A program made the translations under genes and the position numbers. A DNA stretch of 64,000 nucleotides from Blastocatellia bacterium. Its GTDB lineage: Bacteria > Acidobacteriota > Blastocatellia > Chloracidobacteriales > Chloracidobacteriaceae. How positions within the stretch are numbered: the first letter of the stretch is position 1; each line of letters begins with the position of its first letter. The notes beneath the pieces are model-generated. The model was not told where the DNA came from, made no database searches, and saw nothing but the letters and a program-made list of their open reading frames with translations. Of this stretch, positions 29,962 to 41,018 are shown piece by piece. The stretch is taken from contig JAIBAN010000022.1 in assembly GCA_019695185.1 (NCBI GenBank), positions 1-64,000 on the forward strand. Reading direction: 5' to 3'.

Positions 29962-30093
29962 GAAGGTCGAACCTTCGGTTTGGAGTCCAGCTTTTGGGCT
30001 GCTTTCTTTGCACCATCTGAAGGACAAACAGAAAGCAGTAACCCGCAGGCTGTCCTCCAAACCTTAAACAGCAGTCAGTTTCACCTGTCATTT

Positions 30094-33000
30094 ATGAATT
30101 CTTCCCGTTTCAATTCAGACATCACCCAACCAGACATCACTCAAACCACTGGTAACGGTCAGACCTTTGGCCATTCTGATGAAACAGTGGCTGATGTGGT
30201 CCCCGGCAAGACAGTCGGTCAGGTTCGGGGACAGGGCGATGCAACGGTGGCTGACATGGTTTGGGAGAGGCCGCCCAAACCGGTTTTCGGTTCTGGTGAT
30301 GAAACAGTGGCTGATGTGGTCCCCGGCAAGACAGTCGGTCAGGTTCGGGGGCAGGGCGATGAAACGGTGGCCGATGTGGTTTCAGGCAAGACAGTCGGTC
30401 AGGCTGGGGGGCAGGGCGATAAAACGGTGGCTGACCTGCCAGTCAGTGACCAACCCACGGCTTTGGAGCCCCAAAACAGGCAACCGGTCAACGTCAATTC
30501 CGGTTCATTTACTGAAAATGAAACTGAGGTATTTCCTGCCTCGCCTCAATCCGACACTGGTTTCAGCCCCCCCGACAAAGTAACCAAATCACCTTTTCCA
30601 GTGCAGCAATGGGACCGCTATGAGTTTGTCAAATTGCTGGGACAAGGCGGCATGGGGCAGGTCTTCAAGGCCGTTGACCTGCGGTTGAAACGGACGGTGG
30701 CGCTGAAATTTTTATTGGGGGACCACCCGGAACTGGTGCGCCGCTTTCATCAGGAAGCCCAGGCCCAGGCTCGGATTGACCATGACAATGTGTGCAAGGT
30801 TTATGAAGTCGGAGAAGTCGAGGGAAAACCGTTCATTGCCATGGAGTTTGTGGATGGCCCCTCATTGAAGGAAGCGGCAACGGATTTGCGGCTGGAGGAA
30901 AAAATCACAATATTCCGCGATGTGGCGCTGGCACTCCATGCCGCCCACCGATTGGGTTTTATTCACCGGGATGTCAAGCCTGCCAACATCATGCTGGAAC
31001 AACGCGAAGACGGCACCTGGCGGCCTTTTGTGATGGATTTTGGACTGGTCCGCGAGATGGGAACCGACGGGGCCACCATGACCGGAACCGCAATGGGAAC
31101 TCCGGCTTACATGTCACCGGAACAGGCGGATGGCGACCATCGGCGGGTGGACCGCCGTTCTGATATTTACAGCCTGGGGGCCACGCTGTATTTCCTCCTG
31201 GCGGGTCGTCCCCCGTTTGAGGCTGAAACCGGCATGTCTCTCATTTTGAAGGTTTTGGACCGCGAGCTGGACCCGGAACCGGTTCGCCGGCTGAATCCTG
31301 GAGTACCTGCCGCGCTGGACCGGATTACCCTGACTTGCCTGCGCAAGGATCCGCATCTGAGGTATGAATCAGCCAAAGCCCTGGCTGATGACCTGCAACG
31401 CTATCTGGAGGGGGAACCGGTTCAAGCCGCCGACATCTCATGGCGTTACCGGGCGCGGCGACTGTGGGCCCGCCACCGGGTCGCATTGTCGCTCGGCATG
31501 GTGGCTCTGCTGGTCCTGCTCGGTTTGAGCGGCCTGCTGGTGCAGTCCCGCTGGCAGGCGGCCCAGCAAGCCCGTTATGCCTATCAGTTTGGTCGTGAAG
31601 CCGAACAAATTGACAACATCATGCAACGTGCCTATCTGCTGCCGCTGCATGACATCCGCTCGGAAAAAGCCCTGGTCCGGGAACGGCTGAAAGCCGTCCA
31701 GGCTGAAATGGTCCGGGGTGGAAAAGTGGCCGCCACGGCTGGAAACTATGTCCTGGGACGCGGACATTTTGCCTTGGGCCAATACCGGGAAGCCCGCCTG
31801 TATCTGGAGCTGGCCTGGCAGCAAGGGATGCGCAACCCCGAATTGGCTTTGGCCCTGGGGGTGTCGCTGACCGAACTCTATAACGCAGCCTTGCTTGAAG
31901 CTCCAGGCGGGGACAAACCAGCGGCACGAGCCACCTACCTTGCCAAAATTGAAAAGGAACTGCGTACCCCGGCCTTGAATTACCTGAAAATAGCCCAAGC
32001 CGCACCAGGAGGTGATTCCCTTTATGTGGAGGCATTGATTGCTTTTTGTGAAGACCGGCTGGATGATTCCCTCGTCAAGGCCGCACAGGCTTTTCAGGCC
32101 CAGCCCTGGCTGTATGAAGCAAAAAAACTGGAAGGGGATATTTTGGTACGGCAGTCAAGCCAACAGGCTGCGGTGGGACAGTATGAAATCGCCGCCGACA
32201 TTTTGGAACGGGCGGCGGTTCCATACCGGCAGGCGCTGGAAATTGGTCGTAGCGCCCCGAACCTGTATGCCGCCGAAGGAACCAGGCTGTTTCTCAAACA
32301 GGAGCGAAAAATTTCCCAGAAAAAATTTGATGAAAATTTGATTCCCCTTGGTCTGGCTGTATTTGCTGATGCCTTGAAAGCAGACCCGGATTCGGCTGTG
32401 GCGCTGGAAGGGGTGGCCAAGTTGCAATATCGCCTGGGGGAAAGAGAGTTCGAACTGGGAAAAGACCCTCGGCCCACTTTAGAACAGGCGCTTGAGGCTG
32501 CCACCCGGACGATTGAAATTGACCCGACCAAAGGTGATGGCCACAATATTGTGGGAAGCACCCTCATGGTGATTGCTCAATATGAGATAGACCATGATGT
32601 AGGAACTCCTGCTGCAACGCTCAACCGGAGCATTGCGGCCTTGGAAGAAGGGTTGCGCCGTCTTCCGGGGGAGGAAGTCATGCGGGGAAACCTGGGAAAC
32701 GCCCTGCAAGTCACCAGTCAATATGTGGCTGAAACCGGCGGCAACCCCCAACCCTACTGGGACCGGGCGACGACAGTGTATGAAGACGCCCATCGGCAAA
32801 ATCCCCAGGATACTCTCATCCTCAATAACTTTGCCTGTTTATGGATAAGCCGGCTGGATTATGCCATCAGAAGCGGACAGGACCCGGAACCCTTCTTTCA
32901 ATCCGGCCTGGAGAGATTGAATCAAATGGTTGCCATTAACCCAAGGATGACACTTGGTCATATCAACCTGGGGGTGTTGCACGTGTTGAAGCTTCAATCC

Positions 33001-33681
33001 ATGATTGACCATGAACAGTTTTCTCCGGCTGTGGCGGCTCAGGCACGTCAGTCATTGTTACACGCTTGGGAAATCGAGCCGAATCCGGATGCACTGCAAG
33101 GTCTGCTGGAATTAACCTTATTAGAAGCCACTCAGGCTGTCCGGACCGGTGCCGATACGGCTCCGGCACTGGCTGAGGTTCGCCGCTGGGCCGGCGAAAT
33201 GCAGCGTCTGTATCCGAATTATGTCGTACCGCTCAAACTGGCTCAGGCCGAACTTTTAGCCGCTCGTGGCTTGAAGGGGCGGAACCGGCCTCCAGGGGAT
33301 TCCCTGAAAAAGGCCCGAAACTTCATTGAACAGGCTTTGGCGGGTTCGACCAGTGATGCCGTAAACTGGTTGACCGCAGCCGAAATCTCACTTTGCCAGG
33401 CGGAATGGAATCAACTGTCAGGCACCCAGCTCAAAAATGTGCTTTCCCAGGGGATTCAGCAAGCGGAAAAAGCTTTGAAATGTTCGGTTGACCACCCGCG
33501 CGCGCTGGCCTTCAAGGGAGCCTTCCTCCAGCTTCAGGCCAAAACGGAAACCGACCCACAACGAGTCGCTCAAATTCAGGCAGAAGCGCAGACCGTCTGG
33601 CAGCGGGCCTTCCAGCTTAACCCATTGCTGAAACAGGAGTTTCGGGCTTGCCTGCCGCAAAAGGGGATTGCTGGTAAATAA
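30094..33681 (+). CDS. Transmembrane Ser/Thr protein kinase with TPR sensor region and N-terminal ETVAD repeats
   Basis: Hanks-type kinase of 1195 aa. I choose the ATG at 30094; the TTG at 29980 overlaps low-quality sequence, and neither has a good ribosome site. Residues about 28-113 hold about 4.5 near-identical 20-aa (60-bp) repeats with the core ETVADVV. The kinase domain (about 175-445) has GQGGMGQVF, the Lys in VALKF, HRDVKPAN (Asp293) and DFG, so it looks active. One membrane helix (about 465-490) is followed by some 700 aa of TPR-like helices, predicted outside the cytoplasm. It closely resembles the kinase at 37395-40874 in architecture. Upstream gene: secreted peptidase. Confidence 0.92.
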   Translation: MNSSRFNSDITQPDITQTTGNGQTFGHSDETVADVVPGKTVGQVRGQGDATVADMVWERPPKPVFGSGDETVADVVPGKTVGQVRGQGDETVADVVSGKTVGQAGGQGDKTVADLPVSDQPTALEPQNRQPVNVNSGSFTENETEVFPASPQSDTGFSPPDKVTKSPFPVQQWDRYEFVKLLGQGGMGQVFKAVDLRLKRTVALKFLLGDHPELVRRFHQEAQAQARIDHDNVCKVYEVGEVEGKPFIAMEFVDGPSLKEAATDLRLEEKITIFRDVALALHAAHRLGFIHRDVKPANIMLEQREDGTWRPFVMDFGLVREMGTDGATMTGTAMGTPAYMSPEQADGDHRRVDRRSDIYSLGATLYFLLAGRPPFEAETGMSLILKVLDRELDPEPVRRLNPGVPAALDRITLTCLRKDPHLRYESAKALADDLQRYLEGEPVQAADISWRYRARRLWARHRVALSLGMVALLVLLGLSGLLVQSRWQAAQQARYAYQFGREAEQIDNIMQRAYLLPLHDIRSEKALVRERLKAVQAEMVRGGKVAATAGNYVLGRGHFALGQYREARLYLELAWQQGMRNPELALALGVSLTELYNAALLEAPGGDKPAARATYLAKIEKELRTPALNYLKIAQAAPGGDSLYVEALIAFCEDRLDDSLVKAAQAFQAQPWLYEAKKLEGDILVRQSSQQAAVGQYEIAADILERAAVPYRQALEIGRSAPNLYAAEGTRLFLKQERKISQKKFDENLIPLGLAVFADALKADPDSAVALEGVAKLQYRLGEREFELGKDPRPTLEQALEAATRTIEIDPTKGDGHNIVGSTLMVIAQYEIDHDVGTPAATLNRSIAALEEGLRRLPGEEVMRGNLGNALQVTSQYVAETGGNPQPYWDRATTVYEDAHRQNPQDTLILNNFACLWISRLDYAIRSGQDPEPFFQSGLERLNQMVAINPRMTLGHINLGVLHVLKLQSMIDHEQFSPAVAAQARQSLLHAWEIEPNPDALQGLLELTLLEATQAVRTGADTAPALAEVRRWAGEMQRLYPNYVVPLKLAQAELLAARGLKGRNRPPGDSLKKARNFIEQALAGSTSDAVNWLTAAEISLCQAEWNQLSGTQLKNVLSQGIQQAEKALKCSVDHPRALAFKGAFLQLQAKTETDPQRVAQIQAEAQTVWQRAFQLNPLLKQEFRACLPQKGIAGK
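30176..30445 (+). repeat. 60-bp coding tandem repeat (ETVADVV)
   Basis: About 4.5 copies of a 60-bp unit in the 5' part of the kinase gene, nearly identical at DNA level. One copy (30241-30300) differs in its second half. Each unit encodes GD-x-TVAD plus GKTVGQ-x-x-GQ. Confidence 0.93.
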
Positions 33682-35664: not shown

Positions 35665-35778
35665 AAGGAACCCCTCGGTGCGGGATGTGCGGCGTGAATC
35701 CTGGGGCCAGCAATGACTGGCGGATGGCCTTTTGTAACGGAAATTCATTCGGTACGGGCTAAAATTTTGATATCCGGT

Positions 35779-36456
35779 TTAAGAGGGCGACAAGCGGCTT
35801 GGTATCGGTTTCAGGTAAGAGCGGAAGAGGTACTGCTGGTTTTCCGCCTTGGCATGACACGCCTGGCAACTTCCCACTTTTTGCCGTTGCTCAATTTTCT
35901 TTTGATTGCCGCTCACCACCAGAAATTCCCAGTCACCGCAGGCCGGGTTGAACCCTTTTTCATGTTTAATCATGACGGTCAGGAGTTCCGGACTTTCAGT
36001 CACCAGTTTTTCCCGCACAATCATGGTTCCACGGGGCAGAGGTGTGGTGCTGCCGGACAGAAAGGCGGCTTGTCCAATCGGATTGACATACACCATTCCG
36101 TAAATGTTGTGGGCCAGATTGTTTTGCTGAACAAAAGAGGCAACCTGAACCACTTCCTCTTTTTTCCGGTCGGATACATCCGGGTGAAACACTGTGTCCT
36201 GGTAATGGCCATCACCGATGACCGCTGTTTCAAAGCTTCAACCCGCAAACATGGCTTTCGGAATAAATTGTGGTTTTTCAGTGACCGGTTTCCAGTTTTT
36301 ATATCCGGCGATTTGGTTCAGGGTAAAGGTATCATCCAGATTGGCCGCCAGCAAAAACCTGGATTGGGCTTTAATATTGAGCACCCGGCTGTAAATTCCC
36401 AGTCCGGCGATGACCGCCAGAATGAGGGTAAAGGCCAGAAAACGAGTTCTTTTCAT
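35779..36456 (-). CDS. Cytochrome P460-like protein with an in-frame TGA (candidate selenocysteine, or pseudogene)
   Basis: Predicted exported c-type haem protein of 225 residues. The ATG at 36456 has an excellent ribosome site (GGAGGAATT) and a signal anchor (FLAFTLILAVIAGLG). The P460-type pattern follows: YKNWKPV early, YVNPIGQAAF, IVREKL, GDWEF, and a C-terminal haem site CQACH. Codon 73 is TGA (36238-36240), and the frame is open on both sides with no other fault. Starting 15 nt after the TGA there is a perfect 7-bp stem GGTCATC/GATGGCC with loop GGT, 21 nt between TGA and loop, which fits bacterial SECIS rules. Alternatives: a nonsense mutation, a sequencing error, or two separate peptides (the frame after the TGA could restart at a GTG at 36192). 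A small membrane protein gene lies 80 bp upstream on the same strand. Confidence 0.7.
36207..36223 (-). promoter_or_regulatory. Candidate bacterial SECIS stem-loop
   Basis: On the minus strand GGTCATC (36223-36217), loop GGT (36216-36214), GATGGCC (36213-36207). The stem has 7 bp including one G-U pair, and the loop begins with G. UGA-to-loop distance is 21 nt; published models allow 16-37 nt with a 3-14-nt loop and G at one of the first two loop positions. Confidence 0.45.
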
Positions 36457-36536
36457 AATTCCTCCACACAAACCGAAACCACAACTCGAACCCCAAAACG
36501 AAAAGGCAGGGAGTTTCCGTTTTTTAGGGTATTGCT

Positions 36537-36947
36537 TCAATTGGAAAGGGGTTTCCCTATTTGACTCAGGAAATGCAGAAAAGTTCCACCAAATGTGGCA
36601 TAGAGTCCGAGTGGGCTGAGGGTCAGTTCCCATTTGAAATGATTCGGTTCATACCAAAAGGCAACGCCCAGCAGAAAAGGCGACAGCAGCAGGAGCCCGG
36701 ACCCTAAACGCTGGGTCCACCACCTCCAGCCGACAGAAGCCGTGGTGAAATACAAACCCAGGCAGACATTCACCGCGCCGGAAAACATCAGATACAGATG
36801 CCGGGAGCGCAGAAAAATCCGTAACACCGGGTCCAGTTCCGGCAGGGGCGGATGATGGAGCCGTAAAAACCAGCCTGAAATCACAAAGGCGGCAATGGCC
36901 GCCAGTCCAATGATAAGGTGCGTTCTTCCCAGTTTGTCAGCCGACAT
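36537..36947 (-). CDS. Small integral membrane protein, 136 aa
   Basis: Four hydrophobic segments (about 10-27, 48-66, 78-97, 110-130) with short loops; no signal peptidase site and no known motif. It lies 80 bp upstream of the P460-like gene in the same direction, so the two may be co-transcribed and the membrane protein may act with the haem protein. No clear ribosome site. Family not recognised. Confidence 0.68.
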   Translation of the reverse strand: MSADKLGRTHLIIGLAAIAAFVISGWFLRLHHPPLPELDPVLRIFLRSRHLYLMFSGAVNVCLGLYFTTASVGWRWWTQRLGSGLLLLSPFLLGVAFWYEPNHFKWELTLSPLGLYATFGGTFLHFLSQIGKPLSN

Positions 36948-37394: not shown

Positions 37395-40300
37395 TCATTT
37401 TCTCTCCGCCAATTGTTTGGCAATGAGATAAAGCGGTTCGTATTCCCGTTTGAACAAAAGGCCGCTCGTCAAAACTTTTTCCAGAATGTTGCGGGCGCGG
37501 ATTGCGATTTGCGTCTGTGCCGTCTGATTGGTCAGGCTTTGGGCCTGCAAGAGGAGCAAGGCTCCCTGGAGGGCGGTGGCTTCAGTGGCATCCGGGTTGA
37601 TGGTCAAAGCCTTCTGGGTCAACTCCAGTCCTTTTTGAATCTCAAGAGCCGGATTCTGTCCCGTGTCCTTCAGCCATTCGGCTTTGCGGCGGACCAGTTC
37701 GGCTTCCACCAATGCTGCCGAACCGCCATCGGCTTTGGCTTGCCAGGCTTTTTCCAGCAGTTCCCCTGCTGTAGCAAAAGCATTTTGGGGGTCAGTATGG
37801 TGGATTATGGCAAAGCGGGCAGCCAGAATTTCCGCCTTGGCCTGTTCCAACAAGACCCAGGGGGCATCTGGACGAAGGTGCAGCGACTGGGAAAAATTGG
37901 TTTGCGCCTGTGTGAGGTCGTTGGCGGGGTTCTGGTTCATTTCCAGGCGGTACGCCGCCAGATTTAGGAAAACATGCCCCAGGTTTCCATAGGCAACCTG
38001 AGATTGCGGATTGAGTTCGATTGAATGTTTGAAATTTTCAATGGCGCGGTCAAAAGCTTCAGTCGGGTTTTGGCCCAATCTGAGTTGATAAGAGCCCTTG
38101 TTTTCATAGGCCGTGCCCAGGTTGTTATAAGCCAGCGCATAGCCGGGACTTGTGCGTATGGCTTCGTCATAGCATTCCAGCGCTTTGCCAAGGGCCACTG
38201 TGGGGTCAATTCCGTGCCACATTTCATACTGTGCCCGGTCCCGCATCACATTCCCCAGGCTGTTGAGTGGCACACCCGGCAAATTGGCAACTGAAATGGC
38301 TTGGCGAAAAGCTTCAGCGGCCCGGTTAAACGAAGCCAGCGGGTCAACCCCGTGGCTGCTTTCATATTTTCCCAACTGGTGATAGGCATTTCCCAAGGCC
38401 GTATGGGCAGTCGCATTCCCGGATTCAAACCGAATGGCCTGTCTGGCACATTGGATGGCTTCATTCAAATTCGAGCGTGGGTCCTGTCCCAGCCCGTTTT
38501 GATATTCGCCCCGGCGGAACAGGCTGCGGGCTTTAAGGCACCATGCCACACCGCTTTCACTGTTGGTTTGCAGCGCTTTGTCACAGGCTTCGATGGCTTT
38601 TTGGGCGGCAGCTTCAACTGGTTTGCCGCGCGCCACCTCCATCAATAACACATCAACGCCACAGGAGGCTTGGCGCAAATAAACAACCTCGGCGCTAGGG
38701 GCGATTTTCATGGCAGCCAGATATTCCGCCTCAGCTTCCTGGTACCGGGTCACAGCCAGCTCAAAATCGTTGTTGTCACGGGCGGCCAAAGCCTGCCCAA
38801 TCAAGGCGTCGCCGGACAGCAAATGGGCTTCATACATCCAGGGTGCAAGTTTGATGGTGTCCTGGGCTTTGCCAATTGCTTTGGGAAAGTCCTTGCGATA
38901 AAAGGCAATCAAGCCTTCCAAATAGAGTGTTTCACGCGATTCGGTTCCAGAGGTGTTGCTTTTGACATAGAGTTCCAGATGCTTGAGGGCTGTCTGGAGG
39001 TAGAGGGTCTCAAGTTCCCGGCGGCGGAATTCGCGGGCTTCACGGTTTCCCAGCCGCTCCACTTCGCCCACTTCTTCCTGAAACAGTTCCCCCAGGACCC
39101 GTCCCAGCGCAAAATCCACCTCCGGAGTTTGAAAACCCAGCCGAATGGCCTGATCCAGGTGGGTTTTGGCTTTGCGAAAATTATAGAGTGCCAGATACCC
39201 CTGCCCCAGCGCATAATTTCCCGGACCTTGGGCAGTCTGGCCGCCTTGGGCCATGCGGAGGGAGATATGGTTCAGTTGCCATTGAGCCGAAGCCCGCTCC
39301 GGTCGGATGTCATGCAAGGGCAACATGTAGGCAGGCCGCAAATCAGCTTCGATTTTGAAAGCCTGGTCGCCAAATTCAAGTGCATATCGGGTTCCTTCCT
39401 GGGCCCGCCAGCGGGTTTGCAGGGTTTCCACTCCAAGAAACCCAATGGCCAGGAGGGCCAGGGTGGAAATGGCCAGCAGCGTCCGGTGTTTTTTCACTTT
39501 ACGGCGGAGCCGGTCCGACATGGTGGCCTGACGGGCGGAAATCGGGTCTCCATCCAGGTACGCTTGTAAATCACGAGCCAATGCCTGGGCGGATTCATAC
39601 CGTTGGCTGGGATCCTTTTCCAGGCATTTCATGGCAATGGTGGCAAGGTCCCGTGGGATTTTTGGGTCCAGTCGCTCAAGCGAAGGCGGGTCATCATGCA
39701 GTACTTTGAGCACCACCTGCATGGGGGTCACGGCCTCAAAGGGCGGGCGTCCGGCAAGCAGGTCAAAAAGCATGGCTCCCAGACTGTACACATCCGCGCG
39801 CCGGTCCAAATGGTTGATGTCACCGGCAGCCTGTTCGGGTGACATATAGGCCGGGGTTCCCATAATCATGCCCGATTGGGTCAAACCGATGTCGTGGGTG
39901 GAGTCACGAGCCAGGCCAAAGTCCATGACAACCGGCATCAGTTGGCCGTCGGCAGCCCGCTCCACCAGGATATTGGCGGGTTTGATGTCACGATGGATGA
40001 TACCAATCCGGTGGGCGGCAGCCAGTGCCTCGGCCACTTCCTTGACGATGCGGACCTGCTGTTCCAGGTTCAGCCATTTGCGGGCTTTGGCAAGGGAGTC
40101 TCCGTCAACATACTGCATGGCAATGTAGGGCATGCCCTCCACATCACCAACTTCAAAGACTTTGCACACATTCGGATGGTCAATTCGGCTTTGGGAGCGG
40201 GCTTCCTGCATAAACCGCTCAAGCAGGGTAGGGTCGCCACCCCGGATGAATTTGAGCGCCACCAGCCGGTCCAACCGCCGGTCGCGTGCCTGGTATACAA

Positions 40301-40874
40301 CCCCCATCCCACCTTCGCCAATAAGTTTAATGAAGTCATAGCGGTCCCACTCGACGACCGGGAATTCACCCTTCTGGCCCGGTGCCGCTTTTTTTTCCCG
40401 CAGTTCATGGACAAAAAAGGAAAGCGTCTGGGACACATGGAGCGGTTTGCGTTGCGGAGAAGTTTGGGGACCGGTTGCGGAATAGGGGGCAGCCGTCTGG
40501 CGGATTTCTTTGCACAAGGTTTCCGCCGCAGTTTGAGAGAGTTTGCCCTTTTGAATCAAAAACTCAATCCGGGGACCCATCCCGGCAGAGTTGCCCAGGG
40601 GCGACGGGGCGGGAGCAATCACCGTTTCACAGGCTGTGAAATCCGGCCGGATGGCGGAACCGGAGGGCTGTTGGTGACCCACAATGGTTTCAGCCGTTTG
40701 CAACAAAGCGGTGGGGGATAATGTGTGTGTCTCTGGCTGGAGGTCAACCACGGTTTCCATCAATTGGGCATTGGTTTCAACCAACGTGGCTGTTTCACTC
40801 AGGTCATCGTCGGTCAACCAGCCGCGTTCCACGGCTTTGCGCAGAAGTTGGTCTTCAAAACGATGGTCAGCCAT
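37395..40874 (-). CDS. Transmembrane Ser/Thr protein kinase with TPR region
   Basis: Hanks-type kinase of 1159 aa. I start at the ATG at 40874 (MADHRFEDQLL). The longer in-frame version from 40958 would translate a GGACTGA array (KLSPQSSVLSP). The N-terminal 160 aa carry scattered ETVV, ETIV and ETVI motifs. The kinase domain (about 178-450) has GEGGMGVVY, VALKF, HRDIKPAN (Asp296) and DFG. A membrane helix (about 470-492) is followed by some 650 aa of TPR units with regular DPxxxxxxAIxxxxxA patterns. It is a paralogue of the 30094 kinase in reverse orientation. Confidence 0.92.
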   Translation of the reverse strand: MADHRFEDQLLRKAVERGWLTDDDLSETATLVETNAQLMETVVDLQPETHTLSPTALLQTAETIVGHQQPSGSAIRPDFTACETVIAPAPSPLGNSAGMGPRIEFLIQKGKLSQTAAETLCKEIRQTAAPYSATGPQTSPQRKPLHVSQTLSFFVHELREKKAAPGQKGEFPVVEWDRYDFIKLIGEGGMGVVYQARDRRLDRLVALKFIRGGDPTLLERFMQEARSQSRIDHPNVCKVFEVGDVEGMPYIAMQYVDGDSLAKARKWLNLEQQVRIVKEVAEALAAAHRIGIIHRDIKPANILVERAADGQLMPVVMDFGLARDSTHDIGLTQSGMIMGTPAYMSPEQAAGDINHLDRRADVYSLGAMLFDLLAGRPPFEAVTPMQVVLKVLHDDPPSLERLDPKIPRDLATIAMKCLEKDPSQRYESAQALARDLQAYLDGDPISARQATMSDRLRRKVKKHRTLLAISTLALLAIGFLGVETLQTRWRAQEGTRYALEFGDQAFKIEADLRPAYMLPLHDIRPERASAQWQLNHISLRMAQGGQTAQGPGNYALGQGYLALYNFRKAKTHLDQAIRLGFQTPEVDFALGRVLGELFQEEVGEVERLGNREAREFRRRELETLYLQTALKHLELYVKSNTSGTESRETLYLEGLIAFYRKDFPKAIGKAQDTIKLAPWMYEAHLLSGDALIGQALAARDNNDFELAVTRYQEAEAEYLAAMKIAPSAEVVYLRQASCGVDVLLMEVARGKPVEAAAQKAIEACDKALQTNSESGVAWCLKARSLFRRGEYQNGLGQDPRSNLNEAIQCARQAIRFESGNATAHTALGNAYHQLGKYESSHGVDPLASFNRAAEAFRQAISVANLPGVPLNSLGNVMRDRAQYEMWHGIDPTVALGKALECYDEAIRTSPGYALAYNNLGTAYENKGSYQLRLGQNPTEAFDRAIENFKHSIELNPQSQVAYGNLGHVFLNLAAYRLEMNQNPANDLTQAQTNFSQSLHLRPDAPWVLLEQAKAEILAARFAIIHHTDPQNAFATAGELLEKAWQAKADGGSAALVEAELVRRKAEWLKDTGQNPALEIQKGLELTQKALTINPDATEATALQGALLLLQAQSLTNQTAQTQIAIRARNILEKVLTSGLLFKREYEPLYLIAKQLAERK

Positions 40875-40879
40875 AAAAA

Positions 40880-41018
40880 GCAAAGGACTGAGGACTGAGG
40901 ACTGAGGACTGAGTTTTTGATAATACACCGAATTTATTTTCTGTTCCGGCAGGGTCAAAGGAAACTATTTGATTCTTTGCCAGACTCAGTCCTCAGTCCT
41001 CAGTCCTCAGTCCTTTTG
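40880..41018. repeat. GGACTGA inverted pair, core type 1
   Basis: GGACTGA copies at 40883-40913 face TCAGTCC copies at 40985-41015. The core (about 40911-40985) matches the core of the element at 59540-59730, with 24 of 32 identical bases at its left end without gaps, and shared TTTGAT and TTGCCAG near the right end. It fills the gap between the kinase start and the unknown gene at 41021. Confidence 0.92.

Follow-up and report, generated by a model that had tools for sequence, protein, structure and literature searches.

The window analysed here, a stretch of 64,000 nucleotides of contig JAIBAN010000022.1 from a Blastocatellia bacterium, contains a cytochrome P460-like gene on the minus strand (35779..36456) whose in-frame UGA (36238-36240), judging from the sequence and its relatives, very probably encodes selenocysteine (Sec) at residue 73, a reading to which we assign a probability of about 0.95. 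The same reading had been proposed in the initial annotation of the window, and it is now supported by the selenocysteine machinery of the genome, the conservation of the TGA, a Cys partner in homologous proteins and a covarying hairpin. In the mechanism proposed, SelB with Sec-tRNA-Sec would recognise the hairpin 21 nt past UGA 36238-36240 and the ribosome would insert selenocysteine at residue 73 rather than terminate. The product would be an exported c-type monoheme protein of the cytochrome P460/cytochrome c'-beta superfamily, with Sec replacing a Cys that is invariant in a sister clade. This Sec-type P460 family appears to be new, though heme selenoproteins are already known.

Gene structure and selenocysteine machinery

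The gene comprises 225 codons including Sec73, running from the start codon ATG (36456-36454) to the stop codon TAA (35779-35781), and translation of the minus-strand frame 36456-35779 revealed a single internal stop, the TGA at codon 73 (36238..36240), so that the frame is continuous apart from this codon, as initially described. The ribosome binding site noticed at that time was also found by direct reading, as GGAGG (36461..36465) 4 nt upstream of the ATG. Residues 1-27 (36376..36456) are hydrophobic and would act as an N-terminal export signal or membrane anchor; they form a long N-terminal helix in the predicted model. The YKNW motif occupies residues 52-55 of the readthrough protein, and translation and alignment place the heme c attachment motif CQACH at residues 197-201 (35854..35868). 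This is the only CxxCH in the protein, and the several CxxCH motifs of multiheme selenoproteins are absent. The part downstream of the TGA matched Pfam PF16694 (Cytochrome_P460) with 42.2 bits (cut-off 27), which together with CQACH bears out the P460-type assignment of the coding sequence; all 24 of the 24 family members matched PF16694 at E 0.001.

An open frame of 283 codons (35713-36564, plus strand) runs antisense over the entire Sec gene; codon usage, rather than a second gene, probably accounts for it. On one side of the Sec gene lies a gene for an NHL-repeat protein and on the other a gene for a small membrane protein. The locus is also flanked by two very large proteins (29980-33681, plus strand, and 37395-40958, minus strand) that are Ser/Thr kinase-like and have TPR-like tails; the former has GDETVADVVPGKTVGQ-type internal repeats close to the N terminus.

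The host genome, a draft of 222 contigs that spans 8.33 Mb and is 99.7% complete, was found to contain all four of the genes named in the initial annotation as a check on the assignment, namely selA (462 bits), selB (387 bits), selD (386 bits) and selC, the last encoding a tRNA-Sec with anticodon TCA that was identified by Rfam and ARAGORN and scored 61.8 bits, over the gathering threshold. Among the other carrier genomes, 16 of 17 have a tRNA-Sec over the gathering threshold, the exception being a genome that is 62% complete. Since selA exceeds the cut-off in 149 of the 162 genomes of the class, so that it does not tell carriers from non-carriers, its co-occurrence with the gene was not used as a strong argument.

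Conservation of the TGA and the downstream hairpin

A profile of the Sec forms was searched against 162 genomes of the same class (Blastocatellia, Acidobacteriota), which identified 22 genes with exactly one TGA from 18 genomes and 12 genera, several of the carriers being Pyrinomonadaceae or other Blastocatellia MAGs. Of these, 21 were extracted and read, and the remaining one (G001:C997) is known from the search table alone. The extracted genes are strongly diverged, yet in 21 of 21 the TGA stands at the same place and no other stop occurs; neither TAA nor TAG was seen at the TGA position among the Sec-type relatives. When 396 genomes were sampled from across the phylum, no match was found outside the class Blastocatellia at E 1e-15. 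The TGA column is invariant in an alignment of 12 Sec sequences, with 28-41% identity to the window protein, and in an alignment of 28 Sec and Cys sequences every Cys form carries Cys at this column. Both points had been raised in the initial annotation, which asked whether homologues have Cys at codon 73 and whether close relatives keep the TGA. Altogether Cys was aligned with the TGA in 22 of 22 Cys-type homologues, 18 residues past a conserved Trp, as in the window. In a maximum-likelihood tree of 43 sequences the Sec and Cys forms make up separate clades (support 97/96) that are accounted for by one change, and since both forms are present in several genomes they are regarded as paralogous subfamilies. 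The codons on either side of the TGA are under purifying selection: between the close Sec genes L085 and L093, dN/dS was 0.36 for the part ahead of the TGA, compared with 0.19 in the conserved later region.

Several further arrangements of these genes were recorded. The genome of the window carries a second P460 gene of the Cys type (G000:C162, L100; motifs IAKLCNMP and VVKEK) besides the Sec gene (C125). Genome G156 has three consecutive tandem Sec-type P460 genes (L079:456-2529, also L011), each with its own in-frame TGA; the surroundings of U are shifted in the first (QDSUDNS). Another genome of the window's family has two Sec-type P460 genes side by side (L101, G003:C13), with the hairpins TTGTCATC-GGT-GATGACAA and TTCGTCG-GGTC-CGACGGA. 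Relatives of this P460 branch were also seen in records labelled Armatimonadetes (L095, L096 and L098), and L098, the sole one read fully, is a Cys form. At L091, L088, L086 and L079 the Sec-P460 gene adjoins or lies near a zinc-type alcohol dehydrogenase gene, and three of the four also have an upstream lipA-like gene. Several Pyrinomonadaceae Sec genes sit between lipA and the zinc-type alcohol dehydrogenase, a neighbourhood that suggests vertical inheritance without an obvious functional link, and no functional partner was found among the genome neighbours of Sec-P460 genes that were examined.

Bacterial SECIS elements are stem-loops directly 3' of the UGA with a small apical loop containing G (PMC1088965). 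In the window such a hairpin, GGTCATC-GGT-GATGGCC, lies at 36207..36223 (minus strand) with its loop at 36216-36214, 21 nt past the TGA. The initial annotation had described a perfect 7-bp stem with a GGT loop; the hairpin is present and its spacing is right, but the 7 pairs include one G-U wobble. Compared with dinucleotide shuffles the region shows no extra stability (z = 0.06), and a stem of at least 7 bp with a G loop at the right distance arises in 3.5% of codon shuffles (P 0.035). On its own, the window hairpin is weak evidence, and it is only through the relatives that it goes far beyond chance.

Published-style SECIS limits, with the figures given in the initial annotation, call for a G among the first two loop bases and a loop 16-37 nt from the UGA. 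With these limits and a stem of at least 6 bp, a hairpin was found in 18 of 21 Sec genes compared with 2 of 22 Cys genes, and codon shuffles gave a mean of 1.9 and a maximum of 6 (n=1000); the other 3 of the 21 Sec members have no qualifying stem of at least 6 bp. The best simple hairpin averaged -7.2 kcal/mol after the TGA of Sec genes versus -2.3 kcal/mol after the Cys codon of homologues (Mann-Whitney P = 7e-5), and codon-shuffled Sec genes averaged -2.8 kcal/mol (z = -7.4, 0/500). Real and control sequences were treated alike in the energy and pass-rate comparisons, which lack the selection bias of the following set. A set of 14 loop-anchored triloop hairpins had 94.9% paired cells versus 51.5% in shuffles, 47 cells with compensatory changes on both sides versus 14.2, and a covariation of 1.21 versus 0.30, figures that are inflated because the set was selected for a visible hairpin. 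In these 14 hairpins both-side changes affect all seven pairs, pairing is destroyed by sliding the register one to three bases, the first loop base is invariably G and the third is T in 13 of 14. The RNA following the TGA, whose folding had been proposed as a check, forms a hairpin of SECIS type in which compensatory change among the relatives is heavy.

The other ways of reading the TGA can be weighed against these data. If it were a true stop, the locus would be a pseudogene or two short genes with re-initiation, the second being an ORF from GTG 36192 that encodes a 137-aa heme domain, and standard translation does yield exactly these two ORFs; this is nevertheless very improbable, given the same TGA in 21 diverged extracted genes free of other stops, purifying selection on both sides of it and a covarying hairpin absent from the Cys forms, and a pseudogene would not be expected to keep one specific stop codon. 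Decoding of the UGA as another amino acid (Trp or Cys through a near-cognate tRNA, or under a reassigned code) is less probable still, with no supporting evidence found: the homologue column holds Cys and never Trp, the Trp codons of the protein itself are TGG, the genome has a full Sec system, and reassignment would not need a conserved hairpin past the UGA. Least probable of all is a one-base sequencing or assembly error, which a draft of 222 contigs might invite, but the TGA recurs in 22 genes spread over 18 separate assemblies. On the basis of conservation and machinery, the pseudogene, code reassignment and assembly error readings were all rejected, and selenocysteine is the reading retained; no outcome that the initial annotation named as refuting it was observed.

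Fold, heme pocket and possible role of selenocysteine

The AlphaFold2 model of the window protein has a mean pLDDT of 76. Its closest solved fold is T. thermophilus cytochrome c'-beta (7ead, Z 15.0 over 123 residues), followed by M. capsulatus c'-beta (6hih, Z 13.2) and the cytochromes P460 (2je3, 6amg and 6hiu, Z 10.5-12.3; about 12 for M. capsulatus P460). The model is poorly determined past Sec73, with pLDDT under 50 at residues 74-91 and 100-114.

Three features of the distal pocket are described in a review of the superfamily, namely a crosslinking Lys, a distal carboxylate and a capping residue (PMC11928373). Where cytochromes P460 have their heme-crosslinking Lys (Lys70/78/106), the alignment places Arg148 (36013..36015) in the window protein and Arg in 21 of 21 Sec members, and the Cys members have Lys (16 by pattern and the other 6 read by eye), so that the Arg/Lys change tracks Sec/Cys strictly. 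The distal carboxylate column (Glu96/Asp102), set by sequence alignment only, holds Thr160 in the window protein and T, I, V, A or S in 21 of 21 Sec members. Since the crosslinking Lys and the distal carboxylate are both missing, a hydroxylamine oxidase of the Nitrosomonas type is, by sequence, probably not what the gene encodes.

As for the cap, the distance from W55 to Sec73 is 18, as in all Cys forms. In T. thermophilus c'-beta the capping F29 lies 18 residues past the Trp (W11), and in the P460 of Nitrosomonas sp. AL212 the capping F76 lies 19 past W57. If the count is made backwards from the VYVN strand that follows, the cap column instead falls on or next to His117; the two directions of counting disagree because the family has an insertion between Sec73 and His117, and, from the alignments, either Sec73 or His117 could lie over the heme iron. 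Across the Sec clade the Trp-to-Sec spacing ranges over 18-41 and is exactly 18 in 6 of 21, and loss of the His near the cap position is frequent. The U-to-IVREK segment covers 46-111 residues in Sec members versus 39-49 for the matching segment in Cys members; long and predicted to be disordered, it fits a coding region that also bears an RNA hairpin. Besides CxxCH, Sec is the only conserved thiol or selenol, and it has no CxxU or UxxC partner.

Two roles of the selenocysteine are about equally likely. Because the Trp-to-Sec73 spacing (18) matches the Trp-to-cap spacing of solved relatives (18-19), Sec may tentatively be placed at the mouth of the distal heme pocket, at the site where these relatives have a capping Phe or Arg, where it would cooperate with the heme, either through redox activity of its own or as a selenolate ligand, for instance against peroxide or NO species. 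That Sec73 is specifically an Fe ligand or a directly reacting residue of the distal pocket, a feature that co-evolved with loss of the crosslinking Lys, is a narrower proposal and rather unlikely; if it holds, this would be a monoheme protein of the selenolate-heme c kind, and no such pairing is described in the P460 superfamily. It is just as conceivable that Sec makes no heme contact and serves as a surface selenol on a flexible loop, for peroxidase-type chemistry, thiol exchange or binding of a metal or metalloid, the heme only transferring electrons. The predicted disorder past Sec73, the absence of a further conserved thiol or selenol partner, the frequent loss of the cap-position His and the variable Trp-to-Sec spacing of the Sec clade speak for such a surface position, and against it stand the constant Trp-to-Cys spacing of Cys members, equal to the Trp-to-cap spacing of a solved relative, and the strict pairing of Arg/Lys at the heme-crosslink column with Sec/Cys.

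Relation to known cytochromes and significance

The cytochromes P460 of N. europaea (2je3), Nitrosomonas sp. AL212 (6amg) and M. capsulatus (6hiu) share PF16694, CxxCH and the fold with the window protein, which differs from them in lacking the crosslink Lys (Arg148) and the distal carboxylate (Thr160) and in having Sec73 and a long inserted loop. Like the window protein, cytochromes c'-beta (7ead and M. capsulatus 6hih) have neither the crosslinking Lys nor the distal carboxylate, but they have a hydrophobic cap (Phe29/Phe32), no Sec- or Cys-bearing loop and Phe instead of Arg at the crosslink column. The Cys-type sister clade (e.g. L084, L087 and L100) has the same domain, in the same genomes, with Cys exactly at the Sec position; unlike the Sec form, it has Lys at the crosslink column, an NPH motif near the cap position and a shorter loop, and no such hairpin. 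Multiheme c-type cytochromes containing Sec are known, including ExtKL (NF040886), the octaheme tetrathionate reductase family (TIGR04315) and MccSep (PDB 9wt8) (PMC13188914, Table 1), but these belong to other families and bind several hemes, whereas the window protein has a single CxxCH and the P460 fold.

Selenium is never mentioned in the review of the P460 superfamily (PMC11928373), P460 is absent from the 2026 inventory of 119 prokaryotic selenoprotein families and subfamilies (PMC13188914), and the Sec-type P460 is absent from the deep-Sep paper (PMC12013277). No paper combining "selenoprotein" and "cytochrome P460" was found in the open-access (PMC) literature, and none of the 24 members matched a model of NCBIfam release 20.0 (0/24 at E 0.01). 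The earlier remark that no P460 selenoprotein had been described therefore stands within the open-access literature and NCBIfam.

Sec-P460 would add, in soil bacteria, a further family to the 119 inventoried prokaryotic ones, many of which are thiol-redox proteins, and would be the first example found of selenium in the cytochrome P460 fold. Such genes are split at the UGA by standard gene calling, so that they are easily lost or annotated as fragments, and the aligned hairpins provide a useful SECIS set from a poorly studied class. At the crosslink column Arg goes strictly with Sec and Lys with Cys; this pairing offers a natural experiment on the co-evolution of a heme pocket and a chalcogen residue, and makes what Sec adds next to a heme directly testable.
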